Below are positions 11,817 through 21,235 of a DNA stretch of 64,000 nt, piece after piece. How positions within the stretch are numbered: the stretch's first letter is position 1; each line of letters starts with the position of its first letter. The notes beneath the pieces were generated by a model. The model was not told the DNA's origin. It saw only the letters and a list, made by a program, of their open reading frames with translations, and made no database searches. The position numbers were made by a program, and so were the translations under genes. The stretch covers positions 45,669-109,668 of the forward strand of contig NZ_FOWR01000001.1 of assembly GCF_900115495.1 (NCBI RefSeq), written 5' to 3'. This stretch comes from Enterovibrio norvegicus DSM 15893. GTDB lineage: Bacteria > Pseudomonadota > Gammaproteobacteria > Enterobacterales > Vibrionaceae.

Positions 11817-12923
11817 ATGACAAACATTAATCAAGAAAGACTGGTAGAGCATTTTATTGAGCTGGTGAAAATTGACAGCGAGTCAGGTAACGAGAAAGCC
11901 GTTGCCGAAGTGCTTGCGGAACAACTGGGCCAAATGGGCTTTGAAGTGACTAAGCTTCCTGTCCCAGACACCATTTCAAATGGCTTTAACATCTACGCGA
12001 AACTGCAAGGCGAGCGAGAAGGCAGCATTGTTTTCAGCAGCCATATGGATACGGTAACACCGGGTATCGGTATCGAGCCAATCATTGAAGACGGCATTAT
12101 CCGCTCTAAAGGCAACACCATTTTGGGTGGCGATGATAAATCGGGCATCGCAGCGGTGATGGAAGCGGTTCGCACCATCAAGGCGAATGGCGAAGCGCAC
12201 AAGACCATTGAAGTCGCGTTCACCGTGTATGAAGAGCTTGGTCTTGAAGGCGCGAAGCACTTTGACATGAGCAAGATTGAGTCGAACCAAGCGATCGTGC
12301 TTGATTCAGGCGGCAACATTGGCACCATCATTACCACGGCTCCAGGTCAGCAGAGTCTGAAAGTGACTATCAAAGGTAAGCCTGCGCACGCAGGTCTGGC
12401 ACCTGAAACAGGCATTAACGCGCTGACCGTAGCCGCTGATGCGATCAGCAACATGACGCTAAGCCGTATTGACCATGAAACCACCGCAAACATTGGCGTA
12501 GTGCGTGGCGGGCAAGCGACGAACATCGTGATGCCTGAGCTATACATTGAAGCGGAAGCGCGTTCACTGGACGACGAAAAGCTGGCGAAGCAAGTGGCGC
12601 ACATGGTGTCAACGTTTGAAGCCGCGGCTGAAAAACACGGTGCCGAGATCGAAATCGAGTCTACCCGTTCTTACAATGCTTACCGCATCGCGGATGATAA
12701 CCCTCATGTTGTCGCGATTAAAGCCGCATTCGAAGCCATAGGCATTGAACCAATGACCAAGCCAACGGGCGGCGGTTCTGATGCGAACGTCTTTAACGAG
12801 AAAGGCCTCACCACGGTTAACTTGTCTACCGGTATGTCAAAAGTTCACACCACTGATGAGTTCATCGCGATTGCTGATATGGTGTCTGTGACTGAATTTA
12901 TTCGTTCATACCTGACGCGTTAA
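11817..12923 (+). CDS. M20 family metallopeptidase, PepT-like
   Basis: A 368-residue zinc peptidase of the M20 family, tripeptidase T-like branch, cytosolic. Metal ligands and catalytic residues are in SSHMDTV (about residues 78-84), GGDDKSGIAA (about 105-113), the YEELGLEGA catalytic Glu region (about 141-149), LDSGG, and a late His in KVHTTDEF. A dimerisation lid is inserted between (PAHAGLAPETG). The length is a little shorter than E. coli PepT (about 408), as in the PepT2-like group. It probably cleaves N-terminal residues from short peptides. It is a single gene with a terminator on each side. Confidence 0.9.
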   Translation: MTNINQERLVEHFIELVKIDSESGNEKAVAEVLAEQLGQMGFEVTKLPVPDTISNGFNIYAKLQGEREGSIVFSSHMDTVTPGIGIEPIIEDGIIRSKGNTILGGDDKSGIAAVMEAVRTIKANGEAHKTIEVAFTVYEELGLEGAKHFDMSKIESNQAIVLDSGGNIGTIITTAPGQQSLKVTIKGKPAHAGLAPETGINALTVAADAISNMTLSRIDHETTANIGVVRGGQATNIVMPELYIEAEARSLDDEKLAKQVAHMVSTFEAAAEKHGAEIEIESTRSYNAYRIADDNPHVVAIKAAFEAIGIEPMTKPTGGGSDANVFNEKGLTTVNLSTGMSKVHTTDEFIAIADMVSVTEFIRSYLTR

Positions 12924-12952
12924 TTTCAATCATACGATTTTTCAAAGCATCA

Positions 12953-12981
12953 AATGCCGCCTACATGGGCGGTATTTTTTT
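12953..12981 (+). terminator. Terminator after PepT-like gene
   Basis: ATGCCGCC TACATG GGCGGTAT followed by seven T residues. Confidence 0.88.
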
Positions 12982-13010
12982 ATCCAAGCACCTTGTATGA
13001 AAACCTGCTT

Positions 13011-13214
13011 CTAGGGAAACCAGACACTTAGGCTATGTTCTATGCAAATGGAAACAGCAACGTATGCCAACAGTACCGCCATCACCCGAGTGAAATACGC
13101 AAAGTAACGGGGGTGTTCGATTTGCCGTCCAAGCGCTCCGCCAATGAGTGAGTAGGAAAGGGGCGCACCAAAGGCCAATATCGACAGGGCGGTTGACCAC
13201 AACCCCCCAGCCAT
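13011..13214 (-). pseudogene. Remnant of a LysE-family transporter (C-terminal part)
   Basis: A 67-codon frame reads WSTALSILAFGAPLSYSLIGG, then ALGRQIEHPRYFAYFTRVMAV and a final TM. This matches the last two helices of LysE/RhtB transporters. The frame hits a stop codon about 20 codons upstream of the ATG and lacks the N-terminal four helices and the PGP motif. It therefore looks like the decayed 3' end of a transporter gene. A genuine tiny protein is less likely. Confidence 0.5.
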
Positions 13215-13365
13215 GCCTCTGATTTTGCCAGTCGTGACAAAAAGCGCATCGTGACAGTGAAGGACGTATCGCTTTTAGGTGTAGCAGCTGCGAGTTGGTG
13301 TGATACTAAACGGTTGGTTCGATATAAACCGATGAGTGACATCCGCAGACAGACGGAAAAACAGA

Positions 13366-13397
13366 CAAAAAAGAGGCAGCGTCTTTAGACACTGCCC
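13366..13397 (-). terminator. Terminator of the zinc-ribbon gene
   Basis: On the minus strand GGGCAGTGTC TAAA GACGCTGCC is followed by TCTTTTTTG. Confidence 0.87.
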
Positions 13398-13432
13398 CTA
13401 TTAAACAATCATTTCTTAGTGCTTAGGCCGTA

Positions 13433-13657
13433 TTAAAAACCGCCGCCACTTTCAGGATAACCAAATGTTGAACCGCAGTGGTCACATTGTTGGTAAGAAG
13501 ATCCAAGCATCACATCGATGGAGTTCGATATTACGATGGTTGCGCGGTGGAAAAGCGTGCTGTTTGCGTCCGCTTTCAGTGGCTCTAGGTCGATACGTTG
13601 GTGCGAAGTCATACACGCACACTCGTTACAAAATAGTTTGTTTTCTTGGTCTGCCAT
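13433..13657 (-). CDS. Small zinc-ribbon protein, unknown function
   Basis: A 74-residue protein with two CxxC knuckles: FCNECACM at about residues 9-16 and QCDHCGS at about 59-65. These together would bind one zinc ion in a ribbon fold. Between them is a basic and hydrophobic stretch with no family signature I recognise. The ATG at 13657 is preceded by AAGGAAGGCGAC, a strong ribosome site. The longer frame to 13699 is rejected. It lies downstream of the exosortase cluster but is separated by a weak hairpin and 149 bases, so a functional link is only a possibility. Confidence 0.8.
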   Translation of the reverse strand: MADQENKLFCNECACMTSHQRIDLEPLKADANSTLFHRATIVISNSIDVMLGSSYQQCDHCGSTFGYPESGGGF

Positions 13658-13717
13658 GTCGCCTTCCTTGGTTCGGTGAACAGATTCGGATGACTTCACC
13701 CTACGTAGCGTGACGCT

Positions 13718-13739
13718 GAAAAATAGGCCAACGCCCTAT
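13718..13739 (-). terminator. Weak terminator-like hairpin after exosortase cluster
   Basis: On the minus strand ATAGG with CCTAT around GGCGTTG-type loop sequence is followed by TTTT. The stem is only five pairs. Confidence 0.4.
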
Positions 13740-13806
13740 ATTTGAGACTCATATCACTGTATCTGACGATGACTGCTGACGATTTGAACACCACGAACAG
13801 AAATGT

Positions 13807-14337
13807 TTACGAAGACGTTGAATGCTGGACGCTCTCTTGTTTTGCGATCTTCTTTCGTACATTGATGGCGCAGCCTTTGTCATTCACTGGGCCTGATACC
13901 GCTAAAAATAGGGGAGGGGTAGCTGTATCTGGAGACAGCAAACCTTCGACGCTATATTTCAATCTTGCCGTATATGCATGAGCTGTGAGCATTGAATTTA
14001 TTGGTTCTCCGTCTAGGAAGTATTGGATGTCATTCTTATTAAGGTACTGTGCGAGTAGCATGTTATCGCTCGCGTCCTTACCCAAAATATTAACCAATAT
14101 TTCCTGGTGGCATTGGGCTCGTGAGAGCACATACACATAGCTGCTGTTATTGGTGTTTAATGCTGCTTTTAGATCAAGTGTCCAGCCTGAACTTGCTACG
14201 GTCTCTAAGAAGTGTGTCTCTGTTTTTTCATGTTGCGTGATAGAGGCAGTGCTCGTATAGCGAGCCACCTTTTGACCAAGACTCACTGTGGCGATGAGGA
14301 TGAACAGGAAAATACAAACGAAGTGGGTTCGCATCAT
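13807..14337 (-). CDS. Exosortase-linked envelope protein, unknown function
   Basis: A 176-residue protein with an N-terminal hydrophobic helix (FVCIFLFILIATVSLG) that is either an uncleaved membrane anchor or a signal peptide, and a soluble extracytoplasmic remainder. I recognise no domain. Lines such as SSGWTLDLKAALNTNNSSYVYVL and RAQCHQEILVNILGK look structured, and two cysteines are present. The start ATG at 14337 lies one base after the exosortase stop and has GGGAGG seven bases upstream, so the two genes are translationally linked. Its position recalls EpsI-type companion proteins found with some exosortases, but no sequence match to that family is evident to me. It may help present or modify the sorted protein. 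Confidence 0.75.
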   Translation of the reverse strand: MMRTHFVCIFLFILIATVSLGQKVARYTSTASITQHEKTETHFLETVASSGWTLDLKAALNTNNSSYVYVLSRAQCHQEILVNILGKDASDNMLLAQYLNKNDIQYFLDGEPINSMLTAHAYTARLKYSVEGLLSPDTATPPLFLAVSGPVNDKGCAINVRKKIAKQESVQHSTSS

Positions 14338-14338
14338 G

Positions 14339-15160
14339 TTATGCCTCCCTAGCAGCATTTATTGGCGTTTTTTTGTCACTGAACAGCAAAGCAGATGCGG
14401 CAATTAGGGTGAGCAATACATTGTAAACTTCGAGCCCGACACCTTCATGGACAACCAGGTAAATGTCGTAACTTATTGCCATTATGCCGATGCGCACGAT
14501 GTTCAGTGACATCAATAGAACAATGATGGCGATTGGCCAAAGTGGGCGAATGGACTGTCCGCCTTTCAAAAAGAACAAAGACACCCATCCCAGCATGACG
14601 AAAGCAACATTGGAAAAACATGAACAGCCAATGCCGATGGAAAGATCATGGTTTCCGGTAAAAAGAAGGTGATTTCCGTTGATAATGAGCCCGTCATAAA
14701 GTAGCGAAAGCGCAGACCCAATGAGCCAAGTCTCAGCATCTAGTATTGAAGATGATGTGATTTTGAAAAGACAGGATTTCCAGATAAAACTGCCAGCAAT
14801 CATCAGCCATAGAAGGTGCTGCGGTTTGGCTTGTTGACAGAAGTAGATGCGCCATACTGATGCAAACGCTAAACCGACCCATGCCACCAAGGTGCTAGGA
14901 ATCAGACAAGCAAGTGAGAGAACGAGACAGGGAACGATAACATTATCTGGGTTGTGGCTGTCTTTCCCCCGCTTCCAGTGAAGACACATAATGGTAAACA
15001 ACGAGACAATCAAGACGGCGGGGAGGGGGTCGTTGGATTCTCCGTTAACCCAAAGAATGAGATTGTAAGAGAGCCCATTCGCGACCGTTAGCAAGGCCAA
15101 AAAAACATAAACGGTTTCGGTAAAGAAAAGGGTTTTGCCATTGCGATTCTGGGCTTTCAT
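14339..15160 (-). CDS. Exosortase-family transpeptidase
   Basis: A 273-residue integral membrane protein with about eight hydrophobic helices and the exosortase/archaeosortase catalytic set. The set is Cys at about residue 179 in GIGCSCFSNV, Arg at about 223 in SLNIVRIGIM, and His at about 238 in LVVHEGVG. In the family these act like the Cys/His/Arg of sortases: they cut a substrate protein just before its C-terminal TM helix and attach it to another molecule. The gene directly upstream encodes a tiny protein with just such a tail, 28 bases away. I chose ATG at 15160 (GGTGATAAG upstream) over a GTG at 15169. It is not the usual long PEP-CTERM EpsH protein. It looks like a dedicated one-substrate variant. 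Confidence 0.82.
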   Translation of the reverse strand: MKAQNRNGKTLFFTETVYVFLALLTVANGLSYNLILWVNGESNDPLPAVLIVSLFTIMCLHWKRGKDSHNPDNVIVPCLVLSLACLIPSTLVAWVGLAFASVWRIYFCQQAKPQHLLWLMIAGSFIWKSCLFKITSSSILDAETWLIGSALSLLYDGLIINGNHLLFTGNHDLSIGIGCSCFSNVAFVMLGWVSLFFLKGGQSIRPLWPIAIIVLLMSLNIVRIGIMAISYDIYLVVHEGVGLEVYNVLLTLIAASALLFSDKKTPINAAREA

Positions 15161-15188
15161 TCTTATCACCGTCAGGTCTGTTTAGAGA

Positions 15189-15446
15189 CTAGGCCGCTGT
15201 GTTATCAGCATGTGAAACCTTGGCTTTTCTGCGCTGTAATACAAAGCCAACTGCGCCTGCAAGAAGTAATACACCCGAACTAATAGCACTTGCGCCAAAA
15301 TCGCCCATTGGAGCACTAGAACTTGAGGCACAGTGTGGATTACCGACATGTTTACCGTTTCCACAAACGGCATCAGGCACTGCATAGGCCGCTGTCGAAC
15401 ACGCCAGTAAAGTGACAAAACCAAGGGCTCGATAATATGTTTTCAT
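15189..15446 (-). CDS. Short secreted protein with C-terminal sorting-type tail
   Basis: An 85-residue protein. Residues 1-22 form a Sec signal peptide ending in AYA. The mature part is only about 30 residues before the membrane helix and contains two cysteines (VCGNGKHVGNPHC) and a serine run (CASSSSAP). Then comes PMGDFGASAISS, a helix GVLLLAGAVGFVL at about residues 56-70, and a basic cluster QRRKAK followed by a short hydrophilic tail. Signal peptide, TM helix and Arg-rich end are the tripartite layout of exosortase substrates. The gene is the first of the operon and is directly followed by an exosortase gene, so it is very probably the dedicated substrate. The ribosome site TAGGAGATCACA is good. 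The residues just before the helix differ from the PEP-CTERM motif. Confidence 0.8.
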   Translation of the reverse strand: MKTYYRALGFVTLLACSTAAYAVPDAVCGNGKHVGNPHCASSSSAPMGDFGASAISSGVLLLAGAVGFVLQRRKAKVSHADNTAA

Positions 15447-15664
15447 TGTGATCTCCTAAATGTGATGTGCGTAGCTGTCTGGTTTCAAAATGAAATTAAA
15501 TTTGAAGAGAGATTTTCAATTTGCACTTATCCAAGGGTGAATTGCGTAAAATTGCTCTTATCCATTGATACAATTCAAGCGCTGTGCCAATAAAAGGTGT
15601 TGTATGTTTTTTTTAATTAAACTGTGAAAATAGATGGACGGTGAGGAAGGGCCGAAGCGCAACC

Positions 15665-15740
15665 TGAGAAGAGAGAAGAGAGAAGAGAGAAGAGAGAAGA
15701 GAGAAGAGAGAAGAGAGAAGAGAGAAGAGAGAAGAGAGAG
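15665..15740. repeat. 7-bp tandem repeat (GAGAAGA) array
   Basis: About ten copies of a purine-only 7-mer lie in tandem between the exosortase operon promoter region and the RTX gene terminator. Because seven is not a multiple of three and the array is nearly perfect, it is likely to vary in length by slippage. No gene clearly spans it. Confidence 0.9.
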
Positions 15741-15761
15741 TATGGGAATGAGGAAACAAGA

Positions 15762-15787
15762 AAAAGGCCTGAAGATACAGGCCTTTC
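15762..15787 (-). terminator. Terminator of the RTX adhesin gene
   Basis: On the minus strand AAAGGCCTG TATCTT CAGGCCTTT followed by TTC and more T residues. It lies about 20 bases after the stop codon. Confidence 0.88.
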
Positions 15788-15808
15788 AGCATACATTACT
15801 GTCTCAGG

Positions 15809-18800
15809 TTAATCGACGCTGATGAGTATGCGACTCTCTTCCAACATGGTTGAGATAACGTCGGAGCCGGATGATGTTCCCGCCATTCCAAGGTTTTCTG
15901 CCAGCTCAGACACCGAGGTGTTACTGAACACGATTTGCTGGTCGATCACGTCGCCATCTGTTGAGATAGAAAGAATGGCTTCGTTTTCGTCGTTGTCTTC
16001 GAGAGATACAAGATAGTCACCAATACTTTCATTCTGGATGCCATCAAGGACATCGGTGAAATCCAGCACATCCATTGATGGCGAGTAATCTGTGATGGTG
16101 TCGATAGTCAATGGCGCTGCATCACCCTGAAGGAAAGCAAAAGTATCTGAACCTTCGCCACCAGTGAGAGTGTCAGACCCTGCACCACCAACGATGAGGT
16201 CACTGCCCAAACCACCATCGATGTCATCATCACCCAGGCTACCGTAGAGGCCGTCGTTGCCTTCTTCGCCACGAATGACGTTATTGTCTTCGTCGCCAAC
16301 GAGCAGGTTATTGCCTTCAGTGCCGAGAAGCTCATTATCATCTACCAGCGCTTGAAGGTCTTTATCGACATCTTCGCCAGCTTTAATGTCTAGTGTGCTG
16401 TCTGCGTGCTCACCAAGATCGTTCACTAAGACGAGGTCAAAATGCTCAACTTGATCGTCCGCAATCGCATCATCGATCAAATGATAAGCGTATTCACCTT
16501 CTGCGTGACGTGGGTCGTCGCGTCCAAAGATGGTGAGTTCACCTTTGTCGGTTTCGATCACCACGGTTGATTCCGGCATTTCGTAAACGGTGCCATCAAT
16601 GTTGATAGACTCGATGTGCCAATGGCCAATCATGTCCGCTTCAGAGAGTAGGGCCCCCGTCGCAAGGAAGTTGTCGTCTACTTGTGAAACAATGGCATGT
16701 TCTTCAAAAGAGAGCGCACCTGATTGGGCAATCAAATCGTTGAAGTCTTCTTCTGACACAAAATCAAAGTTGCTTTCATCAAGATCATCCACTGCGACAT
16801 CAACTAAGCGCAGCGTATTGCTGCCCAATGTAATCAAGGTGTCTAACCCATCTTGCGTGAGTGTCAACCCCGCAAGCGTGAAAGCACCGACTGATCGAGG
16901 CAACGAGATTTTATCATCGCGGACGCTGAAGTCTGCAACGGTGTCATTCCCTTTACCATCGAACAGCACCACATTATTGCCGCTGCCTAGGGTAATGGTG
17001 TTGTTACCTTCACCACCGTAAACCACGTCGCTGCCGCTGCTGCCGTAAAGGTTATCGTTACCTTTGCCACCAACCATAATGTCATCACCGCTGCCGCCGT
17101 TCAGGTCATCATCGCCTAAGCCGCCGGATAGAATGTCATTATCGTTACCGCCATAAAGGGTATCGTTGCCGTCACCACCGTTGATAGAGTCATTGCCGTT
17201 GCTGCCGTACAGGGTGTCTGCGCCGTCGCCACCATTGACGATATCGTTACCAACGCCGCCGTATATCAAATCATCACCTAGACCGCCGTCTAAGTTGTCA
17301 TTACCGATGTCGCCCCAAAGGCTATCGTTGCCTTGTCCGCCTATTTGCGTGTCATTGCCGATACCGCCATAAAGCAGGTCATCGCCTCTGCCCCCCATGA
17401 GAAGGTCATTATCTTCTGCGCCGTAGAGTGCGTCATTTCCATCGTTACCGTGAAGAACGTCATCACCAGTGCCGCCTTGTAATTCATCTGCACCGAGACC
17501 GCCATTGAGGGTGTCGTTGCCTTCATCACCATGAATCAAGTCAGCACCTCGGCCACCATTTAAGGTATCTTGGCCAGTGCCACCTTTGAGTTCATCATTG
17601 CCACGACCGCCATAGAGCATGTCGTCACCTGCGTCACCTTTGACGTAATCACTGCCTTTACCGCCGCGCACAACGTCGTTGTCATCGCCGCCAAATAAAC
17701 GGTCGTTGCCTATGCCACCATGGAGCGTATCTTCGCCCGATGCGCCATATACTTCGTCGTTACCTCTGCCACCGTTAAGAGTGTCATCACCGGTGCCGCC
17801 TTGTAATTCATCGTTACCCCGGCCACCTAACAGTGTATCGTCGCCCGCATCGCCGTGGAGAACATCGGCGCCTCTTCCACCGTTGAGAACGTCGTTACCG
17901 ATACCGCCATCGAGGTTGTCATTCCCTTTGCCGCCAAAGAGTGTGTCGTCACCTTCCTCGCCTTTGAGCAGGTCGTTGCCTAAGCCACCGTTGAGCGTAT
18001 CTTGGCCTGTACCACCTTTCAGTTCATCACTGCCGCGACCGCCGTAGAGCATGTCGTCGCCCGCATCGCCTTTCACATAGTCATTGCCTTTCCCGCCATG
18101 AACGACGTCGTTATCGTCGCCGCCAAACAGACGGTCAGCACCAAGGCCACCTTTTAAGTTATCTTCGCCTGCGGCGCCATAAAGCTCATCGTTTCCTCGG
18201 TTACCTTTCAACGTGTCATTGCCAACACCGCCTTGAAGCTCATCAGCACCTAAGCCGCCAAGCAAGGTATCATCGCCTTCATCACCGTGAAGGATGTCAG
18301 CGCCTTTTCCACCATTGAGCACGTCGTTACCGATACCACCGTCGAGGTTATCGTTCCCTTTACCGCCGAGTAGGGTGTCGTCACCTTCCTCACCTTTAAG
18401 CAGGTCGTTGCCCAGGCCACCGTTGAGCGTATCTTGGCCTGTACCACCTTTTAGTTCATCGCTGCCGCGACCGCCGTAAAGCATGTCATCGCCCGCATCG
18501 CCTTTGAGGTAATCATTGCCTTTACCGCCTTTCACAACATCGTTGTCATCACCACCAAACAAACGGTCAGCGCCGATGCCGCCATTAAGGATGTCTTCAC
18601 CTGAGCCGCCGTAGAGTGAGTCTTGGCCTTGATTGCCATGCAGAATATCGTTGCCATCGCCGCCTTGTAGTTCATCAGCGCCACGACCGCCGTTGAGGGT
18701 ATCTTGGCCTTCTTCACCGCGAAGCAAATCAGCACCACGTCCACCGTTTAGGGTGTCATTACCGTCGCTGCCACGAAGCTCATCATTACCGCGTCCGCCG

Positions 18801-21235
18801 AAGAGTGTGTCATCCCCGTCGTCGCCTTTGACATAATCATCGCCTTGACCGCCATGGAGAACATCGTTGTCGTCACCGCCGTAAAGTCGGTCTGCGCCTC
18901 GGCCGCCGTGCAGGCTGTCTTCCCCTTCTGCGCCATAAAGCATGTCGCTGCCTTGGTTACCTCGCAGCACATCGTCCCCGAGGCCGCCTTGCAATTCATC
19001 TGCGCCGCGTCCGCCTTTAAGGAGATCATCGCCTTCATTGCCGTGGAGTTCATCGTTCCCTTTACCGCCGTGCAGAATATCGTTACCGGTACCCCCGTTG
19101 AGGTCATCAGCACCTCGGCCACCGAACAGGCGATCATCACCGGATTCACCAAAGATTTTGTCATCACCTTGGTTTCCGTAGAGGGTGTCGGCATGGCCAG
19201 TAAACTCGTAGACAACGCCGTCGATTTCCACGGTTTCGTAGACTTCAGCCAGCGAAACTTGGTCAATCAGCGCGCCGTAGCTGTCTGATTGTCCCTCGCC
19301 TTTGAACGTGACGGTGAGGCTTTCTGTGCCTTCAGGCACAACAAATAAGGCTTCAAAAGAATGGAAGCTTTCATTTGATTGGGTGTTATCGAAAAATTGG
19401 GAATAAAGGACATTGCCTTCATTGTCTTCTACTTCAACCGAGAATTGGCTTGTCTCTGTGTTGCCACCGCGATAGCGGTTCGCGTAATCAAAGCTCAAAG
19501 AAAGGGGGGAGGTTGAATCTGCAGAAATGCCCGATACATCAACGGTTTGTTGAACGGTCGCATTCGCCGTCGAATCCAGCTCCATCACAGTGTTTGATGT
19601 GCTGTTTTGTGGGCCACCACCAAAGCTGCCTTGTTGGAATTCCATGCGAACGTTGTCTGGTGTGCTCCAGCCTTCCACTTGATCGTCTTGAAAGAGCCCC
19701 CAGCGGTTGCCTGCATCATTACCCCACGCTTCAAACTCGCCGTTTGTCAGCGTGCTTTCGCCGCGTGTTGCGTTGTCGCCGTCATCGCCAAAGATCACGT
19801 CGTCGCCACGACCGCCGCGGATGGTGTCATTGTCGCTATTACTGTCGTCAATGACGGGGTTTTGTGTGACATTGAGATCGAACGTAACATCGTTGTAGTT
19901 TGCGTCTCCCAAATCCCACAGGTCTTCCCAACGAGAGCGGGTACCATCAAAGTTCTCGTGGTCCTCGCCGTCACCATTGGCGTTATCGTCAGAGACATAA
20001 ACATCCAGTGATGACCCGTTTTGAGTGACGGTTGGGCGGGCGAGGCTTAAGTCAAGTTCGACATCACCCACTTCAAATCCGTTATTCCCACCGTTTGGCA
20101 CCAAGAAAAATCCAAGGGTTTCTGCGCCAGAGGGCGAAATATTTATATCAATATTGTCTGCAGTTTTTGCGTTGGTAATGAGTACCTGCGCTTCAGTGAC
20201 ATTGCCATCACCATCTAGCAGGTAGTAACCCATGCTGTTTTTGTACCCTGCGACGCTTTCTACATCGGAGATGGAGATGTTTACGTCCCCATCACCTTGA
20301 AGCGTGAACAAGCTACTGTTTGTTTGGTGACCCAGTTCTATCGGATCTGCATCAATGTTGTTTGAACTAGGCGCGCTGTCCGGTTCACCTGCATTCCCGT
20401 AGAGGCGATCATCACCTTGGCCACCATTGATAATGTCGTCACCGGCGTCTCCTTTGAGGGTATCTTCCCCTTTACCGCCGACGATTTTGTCTCTTTGTTG
20501 TGTGCCATCCAATGCATCATCGCCGGAAGTGCCTTGAATGACATTATCGAAGGCAGGCGGTGCTTCTTGTTGTGGAATCTCGGGCTCCACAGCTTCAGTG
20601 GGGTCTACTGCGTCTTGAACTGGCGCGTCATCTTCCGGCGGCGCTTGATTGAGCGCAGCGATAGAAACGGGCTCTTCTTCAACAACGGTAGGTTCTGCAT
20701 TATTGTCATTCTGATCATCATTATTCACTGCTGCGCGACGAGAAGGTGAGAAGGCATCAAAGCGGGTAGTTACCAGTGAATTGAATTGATTCGCAGAAAG
20801 ACTAAAATCGGGATTGAGATCGTTGATGTCGTTGAAAAGAGACTCGAGAAGGGATTCCTGTTCTTCATCAACATCGTCTTCTTCATTACCGAAGCCAGCA
20901 AAGAAGGTCGATTGACTAACAGGTTGCCCTGCTGCTGGATCGCTTCCGTCTAGGCTAGTAGGGTCTTCGCCATTTGCAATGGCTTCAACAATACCTTCAA
21001 CACCCTCGGGCAATTGAAGTTCCTTGTCTTCACCGTTTTCATCGATGAAAACCACTTCACCGTTGAGGGCAACAGAACTGTCTGATGTGTCAACGAATGT
21101 GGTTTTACCTTGTTGAGAAGTTAACAGATCTCCACGACCAATTTGATCGCCAGCTACTATCTCTTGCGTGCCACCATCTGGCGATACCGCAAAAGCTTGC
21201 CCCTGTACCTGAGTAACTAAAAGCTTCTCATCCAT
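15809..21235 (-). CDS. Giant RTX adhesin secreted by a type I system
   Basis: A 1808-residue calcium-binding repeat protein. Residues 1-120 look like the N-terminal retention module of LapA-type adhesins (VTQVQGQAFAVSPDGG, GDLLTS, ANGEDPTSLDGSDPAAG). The PAAG at 100-103 matches the LapG protease site form. Residues 190-235 are an acidic, Pro-rich linker. A first short RTX block follows, then a DUF4114-like domain (about 290-470) containing DGDGEDHENFDGTRS-type sequence. Next is a carbohydrate-binding-like beta domain (about 495-665, ending with GALIDQVSLAEV). About 80 GGxGxDxLx nonapeptides fill about 680-1420. The tail has a second small RTX block and a type I secretion end (DYSPSMDVLDFTDVLDG). 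No transporter or lapD/lapG gene is in the window. Ribosome site AAGGTAAAAAGT precedes the ATG. Confidence 0.93.
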   Translation of the reverse strand: MDEKLLVTQVQGQAFAVSPDGGTQEIVAGDQIGRGDLLTSQQGKTTFVDTSDSSVALNGEVVFIDENGEDKELQLPEGVEGIVEAIANGEDPTSLDGSDPAAGQPVSQSTFFAGFGNEEDDVDEEQESLLESLFNDINDLNPDFSLSANQFNSLVTTRFDAFSPSRRAAVNNDDQNDNNAEPTVVEEEPVSIAALNQAPPEDDAPVQDAVDPTEAVEPEIPQQEAPPAFDNVIQGTSGDDALDGTQQRDKIVGGKGEDTLKGDAGDDIINGGQGDDRLYGNAGEPDSAPSSNNIDADPIELGHQTNSSLFTLQGDGDVNISISDVESVAGYKNSMGYYLLDGDGNVTEAQVLITNAKTADNIDINISPSGAETLGFFLVPNGGNNGFEVGDVELDLSLARPTVTQNGSSLDVYVSDDNANGDGEDHENFDGTRSRWEDLWDLGDANYNDVTFDLNVTQNPVIDDSNSDNDTIRGGRGDDVIFGDDGDNATRGESTLTNGEFEAWGNDAGNRWGLFQDDQVEGWSTPDNVRMEFQQGSFGGGPQNSTSNTVMELDSTANATVQQTVDVSGISADSTSPLSLSFDYANRYRGGNTETSQFSVEVEDNEGNVLYSQFFDNTQSNESFHSFEALFVVPEGTESLTVTFKGEGQSDSYGALIDQVSLAEVYETVEIDGVVYEFTGHADTLYGNQGDDKIFGESGDDRLFGGRGADDLNGGTGNDILHGGKGNDELHGNEGDDLLKGGRGADELQGGLGDDVLRGNQGSDMLYGAEGEDSLHGGRGADRLYGGDDNDVLHGGQGDDYVKGDDGDDTLFGGRGNDELRGSDGNDTLNGGRGADLLRGEEGQDTLNGGRGADELQGGDGNDILHGNQGQDSLYGGSGEDILNGGIGADRLFGGDDNDVVKGGKGNDYLKGDAGDDMLYGGRGSDELKGGTGQDTLNGGLGNDLLKGEEGDDTLLGGKGNDNLDGGIGNDVLNGGKGADILHGDEGDDTLLGGLGADELQGGVGNDTLKGNRGNDELYGAAGEDNLKGGLGADRLFGGDDNDVVHGGKGNDYVKGDAGDDMLYGGRGSDELKGGTGQDTLNGGLGNDLLKGEEGDDTLFGGKGNDNLDGGIGNDVLNGGRGADVLHGDAGDDTLLGGRGNDELQGGTGDDTLNGGRGNDEVYGASGEDTLHGGIGNDRLFGGDDNDVVRGGKGSDYVKGDAGDDMLYGGRGNDELKGGTGQDTLNGGRGADLIHGDEGNDTLNGGLGADELQGGTGDDVLHGNDGNDALYGAEDNDLLMGGRGDDLLYGGIGNDTQIGGQGNDSLWGDIGNDNLDGGLGDDLIYGGVGNDIVNGGDGADTLYGSNGNDSINGGDGNDTLYGGNDNDILSGGLGDDDLNGGSGDDIMVGGKGNDNLYGSSGSDVVYGGEGNNTITLGSGNNVVLFDGKGNDTVADFSVRDDKISLPRSVGAFTLAGLTLTQDGLDTLITLGSNTLRLVDVAVDDLDESNFDFVSEEDFNDLIAQSGALSFEEHAIVSQVDDNFLATGALLSEADMIGHWHIESINIDGTVYEMPESTVVIETDKGELTIFGRDDPRHAEGEYAYHLIDDAIADDQVEHFDLVLVNDLGEHADSTLDIKAGEDVDKDLQALVDDNELLGTEGNNLLVGDEDNNVIRGEEGNDGLYGSLGDDDIDGGLGSDLIVGGAGSDTLTGGEGSDTFAFLQGDAAPLTIDTITDYSPSMDVLDFTDVLDGIQNESIGDYLVSLEDNDENEAILSISTDGDVIDQQIVFSNTSVSELAENLGMAGTSSGSDVISTMLEESRILISVD
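16980..19200 (-). repeat. RTX nonapeptide array with 432-bp higher-order repeat
   Basis: About 80 tandem 27-base units encode GGxGxDxLx motifs. On top of these, blocks of 16 units (432 bases) recur. The block starting LFGGDDNDV is seen near 17690, 18120 and 18550, with a shorter 12-unit relative near 18880. The blocks share long near-identical stretches such as LYGGRGSDELKGGTGQDTL. Confidence 0.85.

Follow-up and report, generated by a model that had tools for sequence, protein, structure and literature searches.

Exosortases and archaeosortases have conserved Cys, Arg and His residues in common (PMC4343526). In exosortase/PEP-CTERM systems (PF09721, TIGR04178; cyanoexosortase B), a Cys/Arg/His enzyme is paired with substrates carrying a signal peptide and a tripartite tail. 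A small protein beside the enzyme is found with cyanoexosortase B, where a CrtB-associated gene is described immediately downstream (PMC12188702). The term dedicated system has been used for genomes in which rhombosortase has a single GlyGly-CTERM target, encoded next to it, and it covers sortase, exosortase and rhombosortase (PMC3237569). Dedicated sorting systems are an established idea (PMC3237569, PMC8416519).

A locus of Enterovibrio norvegicus DSM 15893 was analyzed within a 64,000-nucleotide stretch of genomic DNA (contig NZ_FOWR01000001.1, positions 45,669 to 109,668), referred to below as the window. Like the exosortase/PEP-CTERM systems, it combines a Cys/Arg/His enzyme with a predicted substrate that has a signal peptide and a tripartite tail and, as with cyanoexosortase B, a small protein is encoded beside the enzyme. 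Unlike in those systems, the enzyme falls below all Pfam and NCBIfam cut-offs, AP[MI]-x-[DE] stands in place of PEP, a single tiny substrate is recognized, and polysaccharide genes were not recognized by eye around the cassette. As in the rhombosortase dedicated systems, the processing enzyme adjoins its single recognized target; the window, however, has another enzyme family, a target of about 25 residues and an extra accessory protein with two cysteines. Among the matches listed in a literature search, no title dealt with an exosortase-micropeptide cassette. New are two-Cys micropeptide-exosortase-accessory triplets in other proteobacteria, the two-Cys accessory beside 23/23 aligned exosortases, and the occurrence of the peptide motif after the signal peptide in phage-borne YadA-type and cyanophage proteins.

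Results

Organization of the cassette

The triplet occupies 15446-13807 of the minus strand; its genes, nearly end to end, specify a secreted precursor of 85 aa, a divergent exosortase and a small two-Cys protein. The three packed genes of the initial annotation correspond to the ORFs 15446-15189, 15169-14339 and 14337-13807. Residue numbers of the exosortase are counted from the ATG at 15160, Cys179 being Cys182 when counted from the GTG. The features are as follows.

15189..15446, minus strand: 85-aa peptide precursor, predicted exosortase substrate; ATG ORF, full-length homologues beside an exosortase in 6/329 Vibrionaceae genomes
15381..15446, minus strand: predicted signal peptide, residues 1-22, AYA/VPDAV; by eye from the sequence, 5/21 identical to genome G003
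15303..15380, minus strand: mature peptide VPDAVCGNGKHVGNPHCASSSSAPMG with Cys28, Cys39 and Ser run; 27/27 identical to G003 (including the preceding Ala)
15192..15302, minus strand: C-terminal sorting tail, tripartite; (AP-M-G-)DF, hydrophobic helix, QRRK, end
14339..15169, minus strand: divergent exosortase, 276 aa from GTG, 273 aa from ATG 15160; profile link to PF09721 members
14624..14626, minus strand: predicted catalytic Cys179 codon; invariant in 23/23
14492..14494, minus strand: predicted catalytic Arg223 codon; invariant in 23/23
14447..14449, minus strand: predicted catalytic His238 codon; invariant in 23/23
13807..14337, minus strand: two-Cys accessory, 176 aa, N-terminal hydrophobic helix and alpha/beta domain; counterpart beside each exosortase read

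A distance of 19 nt separates the stop codon of the peptide gene from the GTG of the enzyme, and the accessory ATG (14337) lies one base past the exosortase stop, as had been read initially. In the G041 genome, taking the first GTG as start of the enzyme makes its frame overlap that of the peptide. The operon limits rest on gene spacing, because a promoter and terminator scan at the cassette yielded sites no more frequent than in shuffles. RNA families were searched in 12900-16200 and zero were found. The triplet is not a chance arrangement, since it recurs in six genomes and its core differs from that of G003 by 18 synonymous codon differences only.

Immediately upstream of the cassette, an RTX-repeat protein of 1808 aa that contains a DUF4114 domain is encoded (15809-21235), and a TCTCT repeat run is located between this gene and the peptide gene (about 15670-15740). 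In three relatives, a homologue of the RTX gene has the same neighbors, the cassette being absent. The cassette is followed by a gene for an 88-aa protein with Cys pairs (13433-13699), which matches no Pfam family and is present in 12/18 genomes of the window's genus, mostly without the cassette.

Peptide precursor

The precursor consists of a signal-peptide-like N-terminus ending in AYA, two Cys, SSSS, a hydrophobic helix and QRRK. This architecture agrees with the signal peptide, two cysteines, serine run, helix and Arg-rich end first noticed in the ORF; the mature part, initially put at about 30 residues, is corrected to about 22-26. Cleavage of the signal peptide is predicted, by eye, after AYA. 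The same succession of signal peptide, motif, helix and basic end was seen by eye in the window and in five homologues. A short putative cleavage-site motif, AP[MI]-x-[DE]-[FL], precedes the helix across the six precursors, with the variant AAPMLEL in G041. The view that the residues before the helix are not a PEP-CTERM motif was borne out: the Pro-Glu-Pro motif is absent, no PEP-CTERM model was listed when the precursor was compared with NCBIfam, and all NCBIfam sorting-signal models remained below cut-off with the precursor tail (VPLPA, 13.8 bits vs a cut-off of 25.35).

Two species share an unchanged mature peptide, AVPDAVCGNGKHVGNPHCASSSSAPMG (27/27, window vs G003). Between their cores 18/27 codons differ, 18 synonymously and 0 non-synonymously; identity over the same pair is 5/21 for the signal peptide, 5/32 for the tail and 42-43% for the enzyme. 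Among the four distinct precursors (leaving out the near-copies G002 and G189), cores are identical at 20-27/27 positions, signal peptides at 4-8/21 and tails at 5-16/32. PDAVCGNG, VGNPHC and AP are kept in 6/6 precursors, and G122 and G189 have Ala at the position of the loop's first His. Because the core was left unchanged, with 0 non-synonymous differences, while signal peptide, tail and enzyme diverged, this comparison at the codon level shows purifying selection on the mature peptide. The core pattern of the mature peptide has a single match in the window and 0 in 100 shuffles.

Exosortase

Besides the Cys, Arg and His already identified in the initial annotation (Cys179, Arg223, His238), Asn220 is invariant in 23/23 aligned exosortases; a lack of conservation of Cys, Arg and His among orthologues had been named as grounds against a dedicated pair. 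The second Cys of CSCF is not conserved, the relatives reading CSVF. The profile HMMs of exosortase subfamilies that had been proposed as a check gave weak matches with the enzyme and remained below cut-off with the tail: the window enzyme had no Pfam match and matched NCBIfam XrtX at E 0.018, below cut-off, and XrtK was matched at E 0.00039, likewise below cut-off, by 2/6 Vibrionaceae enzymes. PF09721 was reached through homologues from another genus. With a profile of the window enzyme, 9/394 genomes in an order sample were found, namely the window's own and eight of one genus (g47), which we take to resemble Aeromonas. Two of the three g47 homologues scanned passed PF09721 (L012, 2e-10; L019, 5.8e-6) and L018 failed; the window profile had matched L012 at E 1.6e-22. 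The exosortase homologues L046 and L048 had no match at all to PF09721.

Two-Cys accessory protein

The third gene product had been put forward as a candidate accessory of an unrecognized family, and this description stands. A small protein is encoded next after the exosortase in 27/27 loci read (23 aligned and four more), and seven accessories, scanned against Pfam and NCBIfam including EpsI and other named exosortase-associated families, gave nothing above cut-off. Near the N-terminus of each accessory is a hydrophobic stretch, and each contains two Cys. The second, Cys156, is invariant in 23/23 aligned accessories; the first, Cys76, aligns in 20/20 in alignment A11 and in 19/23 in alignment A15, where in four rows it is shifted by about two columns. 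When the Vibrionaceae and g47 accessory profiles were compared directly, the similarity was weak (E 0.034, probability 1.5%), so that common descent of the accessories is judged from their position, their architecture and the Cys pair. In an AlphaFold2 model based on 20 sequences (mean pLDDT 78.5, pTM 0.66), the N-terminus is predicted to be a long helix, and the predicted strands of an alpha/beta domain span residues 53-59, 67-73, 76-84, 104-108, 111-113 and 144-148. PDB sequence searches gave a best E of 0.39 with the accessory and no match with the enzyme or the mature peptide.

Distribution, loss and mobility in Vibrionaceae

A search for conserved triplets found the same genes in the same order in 6/329 Vibrionaceae genomes, in four settings: G000 (the window's own), G002 and G003 of the window's genus, G041, and G122 and G189. 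Genome searches scored the best candidates of a first pass, and absences hold at that sensitivity. The enzyme profile matched 7/329 genomes; the seventh, G004 (E 9.5e-4), was rejected as chance, the match lying within a 404-aa multi-pass membrane protein. The precursor profile matched 32/329 genomes at E up to 0.1. Six of these matches are full length (E 8.7e-42 or better), and it is exclusively beside an exosortase, in the same six genomes, that full-length copies occur; precursor homologues lacking an exosortase had been sought as evidence against a dedicated pair. The remaining strong match, in G007 (E 3.4e-13), is a remnant without enzyme. Its precursor diverges past CGNGKHVG, and an accessory fragment starting near LVSILGKDASD comes next. 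As a precursor start and an accessory end are left without the enzyme, the unit was lost jointly in this one case. Matches in 25 further genomes were weak and were taken as chance, many containing stops (part of them checked). A regular expression run on nine regions of eight weak-match genomes and on five loci found no secreted protein with the motif.

The window enzyme is 93% identical to that of the E. baiacu locus. A gene at 11817-12923, peptidase-like by eye, is 89% identical in G003, vs 42-43% for the enzyme, and in G003 the peptidase and the small gene are about 145 kb away from the triplet. The window's neighbors (peptidase, 88-aa gene and RTX gene) are kept in G005, G015 and G012, the triplet being absent between them. 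The different sites and the two divergent versions within one genus suggest that the cassette spread by horizontal transfer. Plasmids searched with the enzyme and the precursor gave no match, and no polysaccharide genes were recognized by eye around the Vibrionaceae cassettes.

Number of substrates

A profile of four tails was run on the six carrier genomes and found one strong match in each (E 8.6e-19 or better), so that each genome has one gene with this tail; in 6/6 the precursor adjoins the enzyme. The next-best match, E 0.002 in G002, is a 26-residue frame inside no secreted gene. The profile missed a protein with a DUF4114 domain and a TAPMPP tail that is encoded in the window's genome and is probably an exosortase substrate. 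The profile is therefore insensitive to substrates with divergent tails; its result rules out further substrates with this tail, divergent tails lying beyond its reach. The initial idea of one enzyme serving one peptide is thus supported by the single strong match in 6/6 genomes and, at the low sensitivity of the profile, unproved. On the reading favored below, the exosortase would have no other substrate.

Wider exosortase group and parallel micropeptides

In samples that overlap one another, the exosortase group was found in 2/369 genomes of the class (the window's own, with two enzymes, and G775), 5/329 of the phylum, 3/36 of the family of G1290, 1/2 of the family of G775 and, using the widest profile, 8 of 164 Vibrionaceae genomes. 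Most exosortases of the group have a substrate-like gene adjacent. In all eight g47 loci (L012-L019), the exosortase and the two-Cys accessory are accompanied by a DUF1194-type protein that is encoded divergently and bears the tail AAP[IL]EE[IL]P, and five loci read of the window's genus contain DUF4114-type proteins with TAP[ML]P tails; both assignments come from a Pfam run on one protein each.

The accessory type also accompanies exosortases with larger substrates, one of them in a polysaccharide-type locus of the window's genome. This second system (L048; G000:C44:60000-76000) comprises an exosortase, a two-Cys accessory and a DUF4114 substrate with the TAPMPP tail, and its neighbors include, by eye, glycosyltransferase-, flippase- and chain-length-like genes. 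It resembles the window cassette in its homologous enzyme (E 9.1e-11 with a profile made without L048), its two-Cys accessory and its adjacent tailed substrate, and differs in the polysaccharide-type surroundings and the large DUF4114 substrate. The exosortase/accessory/DUF4114 trio was also seen in two genomes of the window's genus, G001 and G006 (as small as 2.1 and 2.6 Mb; loci among L106-L109), which may be reduced symbionts, although this is a guess. In G1177b a 129-aa candidate substrate is adjacent to the exosortase and a second protein of like tail is encoded 2 kb off; near the exosortase-accessory loci of G1260, G1177a and G1279, no recognizable substrate was found.

Triplets with a small two-Cys precursor are present in four further proteobacterial loci, one in G775 and three in a single family (G1290, G1346 and G1354). 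In the latter three, the mature part DNFN[ST]TA...ANC...C is kept at 18-24/30 positions, the signal peptide at 3-6 of 21-22 and the tail at 7-14 of 30-34. The G1290-type core is unlike the Vibrionaceae core (3/27; 790/1000 shuffles score equal or higher). A Poly_export gene lies near the G1290 triplet. On an enzyme tree of 20 rows, with long branches and most deep forks open, the peptide-type label needs three changes, and the strongly supported branches are compatible with one origin of the peptide-type enzymes.

Peptide motif outside exosortase systems

Searching with the precursor by tblastn returned a hypothetical protein of Synechococcus phage S-B68 at E 0.03, which is weak alone. The protein (L112 1408-1938; MK016664.1 2355-2885) reads ...APAFALPAAVCGNGQHVGNPHCQQ... 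straight after a signal-like start, bearing LPAAVCGNGQHVGNPHC directly past the signal peptide. The pattern CGNGxxxGNPHC was then matched in IMG/VR by the same gene on two contigs (L113 643-1287 and L114 5723-6367). Its product has IPDAVCGNGQHTGNPHC, shared with the peptide, a few residues past the signal peptide; it reads ...TADIPDAVCGNGQHTGNPHCAQVPPPP..., continues with collagen-like repeats (PF01391 below cut-off) and differs from the precursor by a YadA anchor (PF03895, E 7.2e-16). PDAV and the first H were absent from the search pattern, so the YadA-type match exceeds what the pattern required. Both carriers lack an exosortase tail, and the loop therefore also occurs outside exosortase systems; the consensus of the motif in the phage proteins is Px AVCGNGxHxGNPHC after the signal peptide. 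Contig L114 also has a regulator-like gene, phage-borne in appearance by eye.

In the IMG/VR pattern lists (37 and 22 stretches), the motif followed a signal peptide exclusively in L113/L114. Pattern matches in L124, L165, L167 and L178 were discarded as they had no open frame through the motif, and Salinibacter phage matches at E 3 were taken as chance. Related loci sought with the cyanophage protein were not found, and PHROGs gave nothing better than E 0.3.

Discussion

The reading we favor, and hold to be fairly probable, is that the cassette is a dedicated, mobile exosortase system displaying a disulfide-loop peptide at the cell surface. The precursor would be exported by Sec, presumably losing its signal peptide after AYA. 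The C-terminal helix would anchor it in the inner membrane, with the two-Cys loop (C-x10-C) and the Ser run outside, and the loop would probably become a disulfide in the periplasm. The exosortase, using its Cys, Arg and His, may then cut near AP[MI]-x-[DE]-[FL] via an acyl-enzyme, the new C-terminus of the peptide being transferred to water or to a lipid or glycan acceptor. The acyl-enzyme and the transfer are proposed in analogy to rhombosortase and archaeosortase: VesB, the rhombosortase product of Vibrio cholerae, is described with a glycerophosphoethanolamine-containing group attached (PMC6219818), and archaeosortase has been linked to lipid attachment (PMC4343526). The two-Cys accessory, with a domain predicted on the same side, may aid substrate or acceptor handling. 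The product would most likely reside on the envelope and consist of a head (the CGNGKHVGNPHC loop), a Ser linker and an anchor.

Alternatively, the exosortase could cut and release the peptide as a diffusible, bacteriocin-like or protective agent, with the accessory aiding release or self-handling. This we consider unlikely. A tiny, near-invariant mature peptide with two Cys is as one would predict for a secreted, receptor-binding peptide, and the cassette is present or absent as a unit at different sites; however, inspection of the four settings by eye revealed no receptor, regulator, exporter or immunity-like gene common to them with the triplet, and the Ser run that separates the loop from the cleavage motif resembles a linker to an anchor. 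Display is further favored by the YadA-type protein, which is anchored in the outer membrane and has the same loop close to its mature N-terminus. In a trimeric autotransporter, the N-terminal end is usually the outermost part, and the position of the loop in that carrier therefore favors the surface.

It is improbable that the motif is an N-terminal export or sorting signal common to unrelated secreted proteins instead of a functional product. It does stand directly or a few residues after the signal peptide in three kinds of carrier (by eye), but the Vibrionaceae precursor would retain almost nothing else for a signal to sort after processing, and the Vibrionaceae precursor-profile matches read (part of the weak ones) included no other secreted carrier. 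That the enzyme is a general exosortase serving several substrates, of which the 85-aa protein is just the adjacent one, is very improbable: one genome has 35 predicted PEP-CTERM proteins (PMC12188702), showing that some exosortases have many targets, and the tail profile missed the substrate of the second exosortase in the window's genome, but a single strong tail match was found in 6/6 genomes, with the next best in no secreted gene, and enzyme and precursor are confined to the same six genomes of 329.

A broader proposal can be offered tentatively: accessory-linked exosortases may have been harnessed on more than one occasion to attach micropeptides, in mobile cassettes that coat the envelope with a disulfide-loop ligand, and CGNGxHxGNPHC may be a portable surface head exchanged among the exosortase-anchored Vibrionaceae peptides and phage-borne secreted and YadA-type proteins. 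Given such exchange among carriers, the loop would probably bind a common target, for instance a cell-surface or phage component.

To our knowledge, the acceptors of exosortase products are poorly known, partly because the substrates of many exosortases are numerous, large and divergent. With a single enzyme, a single accessory and a precursor of 85 residues, the cassette comes close to a minimal exosortase model; as the whole product would be visible by mass spectrometry, the cleavage site and a C-terminal adduct would be directly measurable. The two-Cys accessory provides a handle on an unnamed component accompanying this exosortase group. Finally, the occurrence of one 12-residue loop in exosortase peptides as well as in phage-borne surface proteins hints that a small binding element has been reused.
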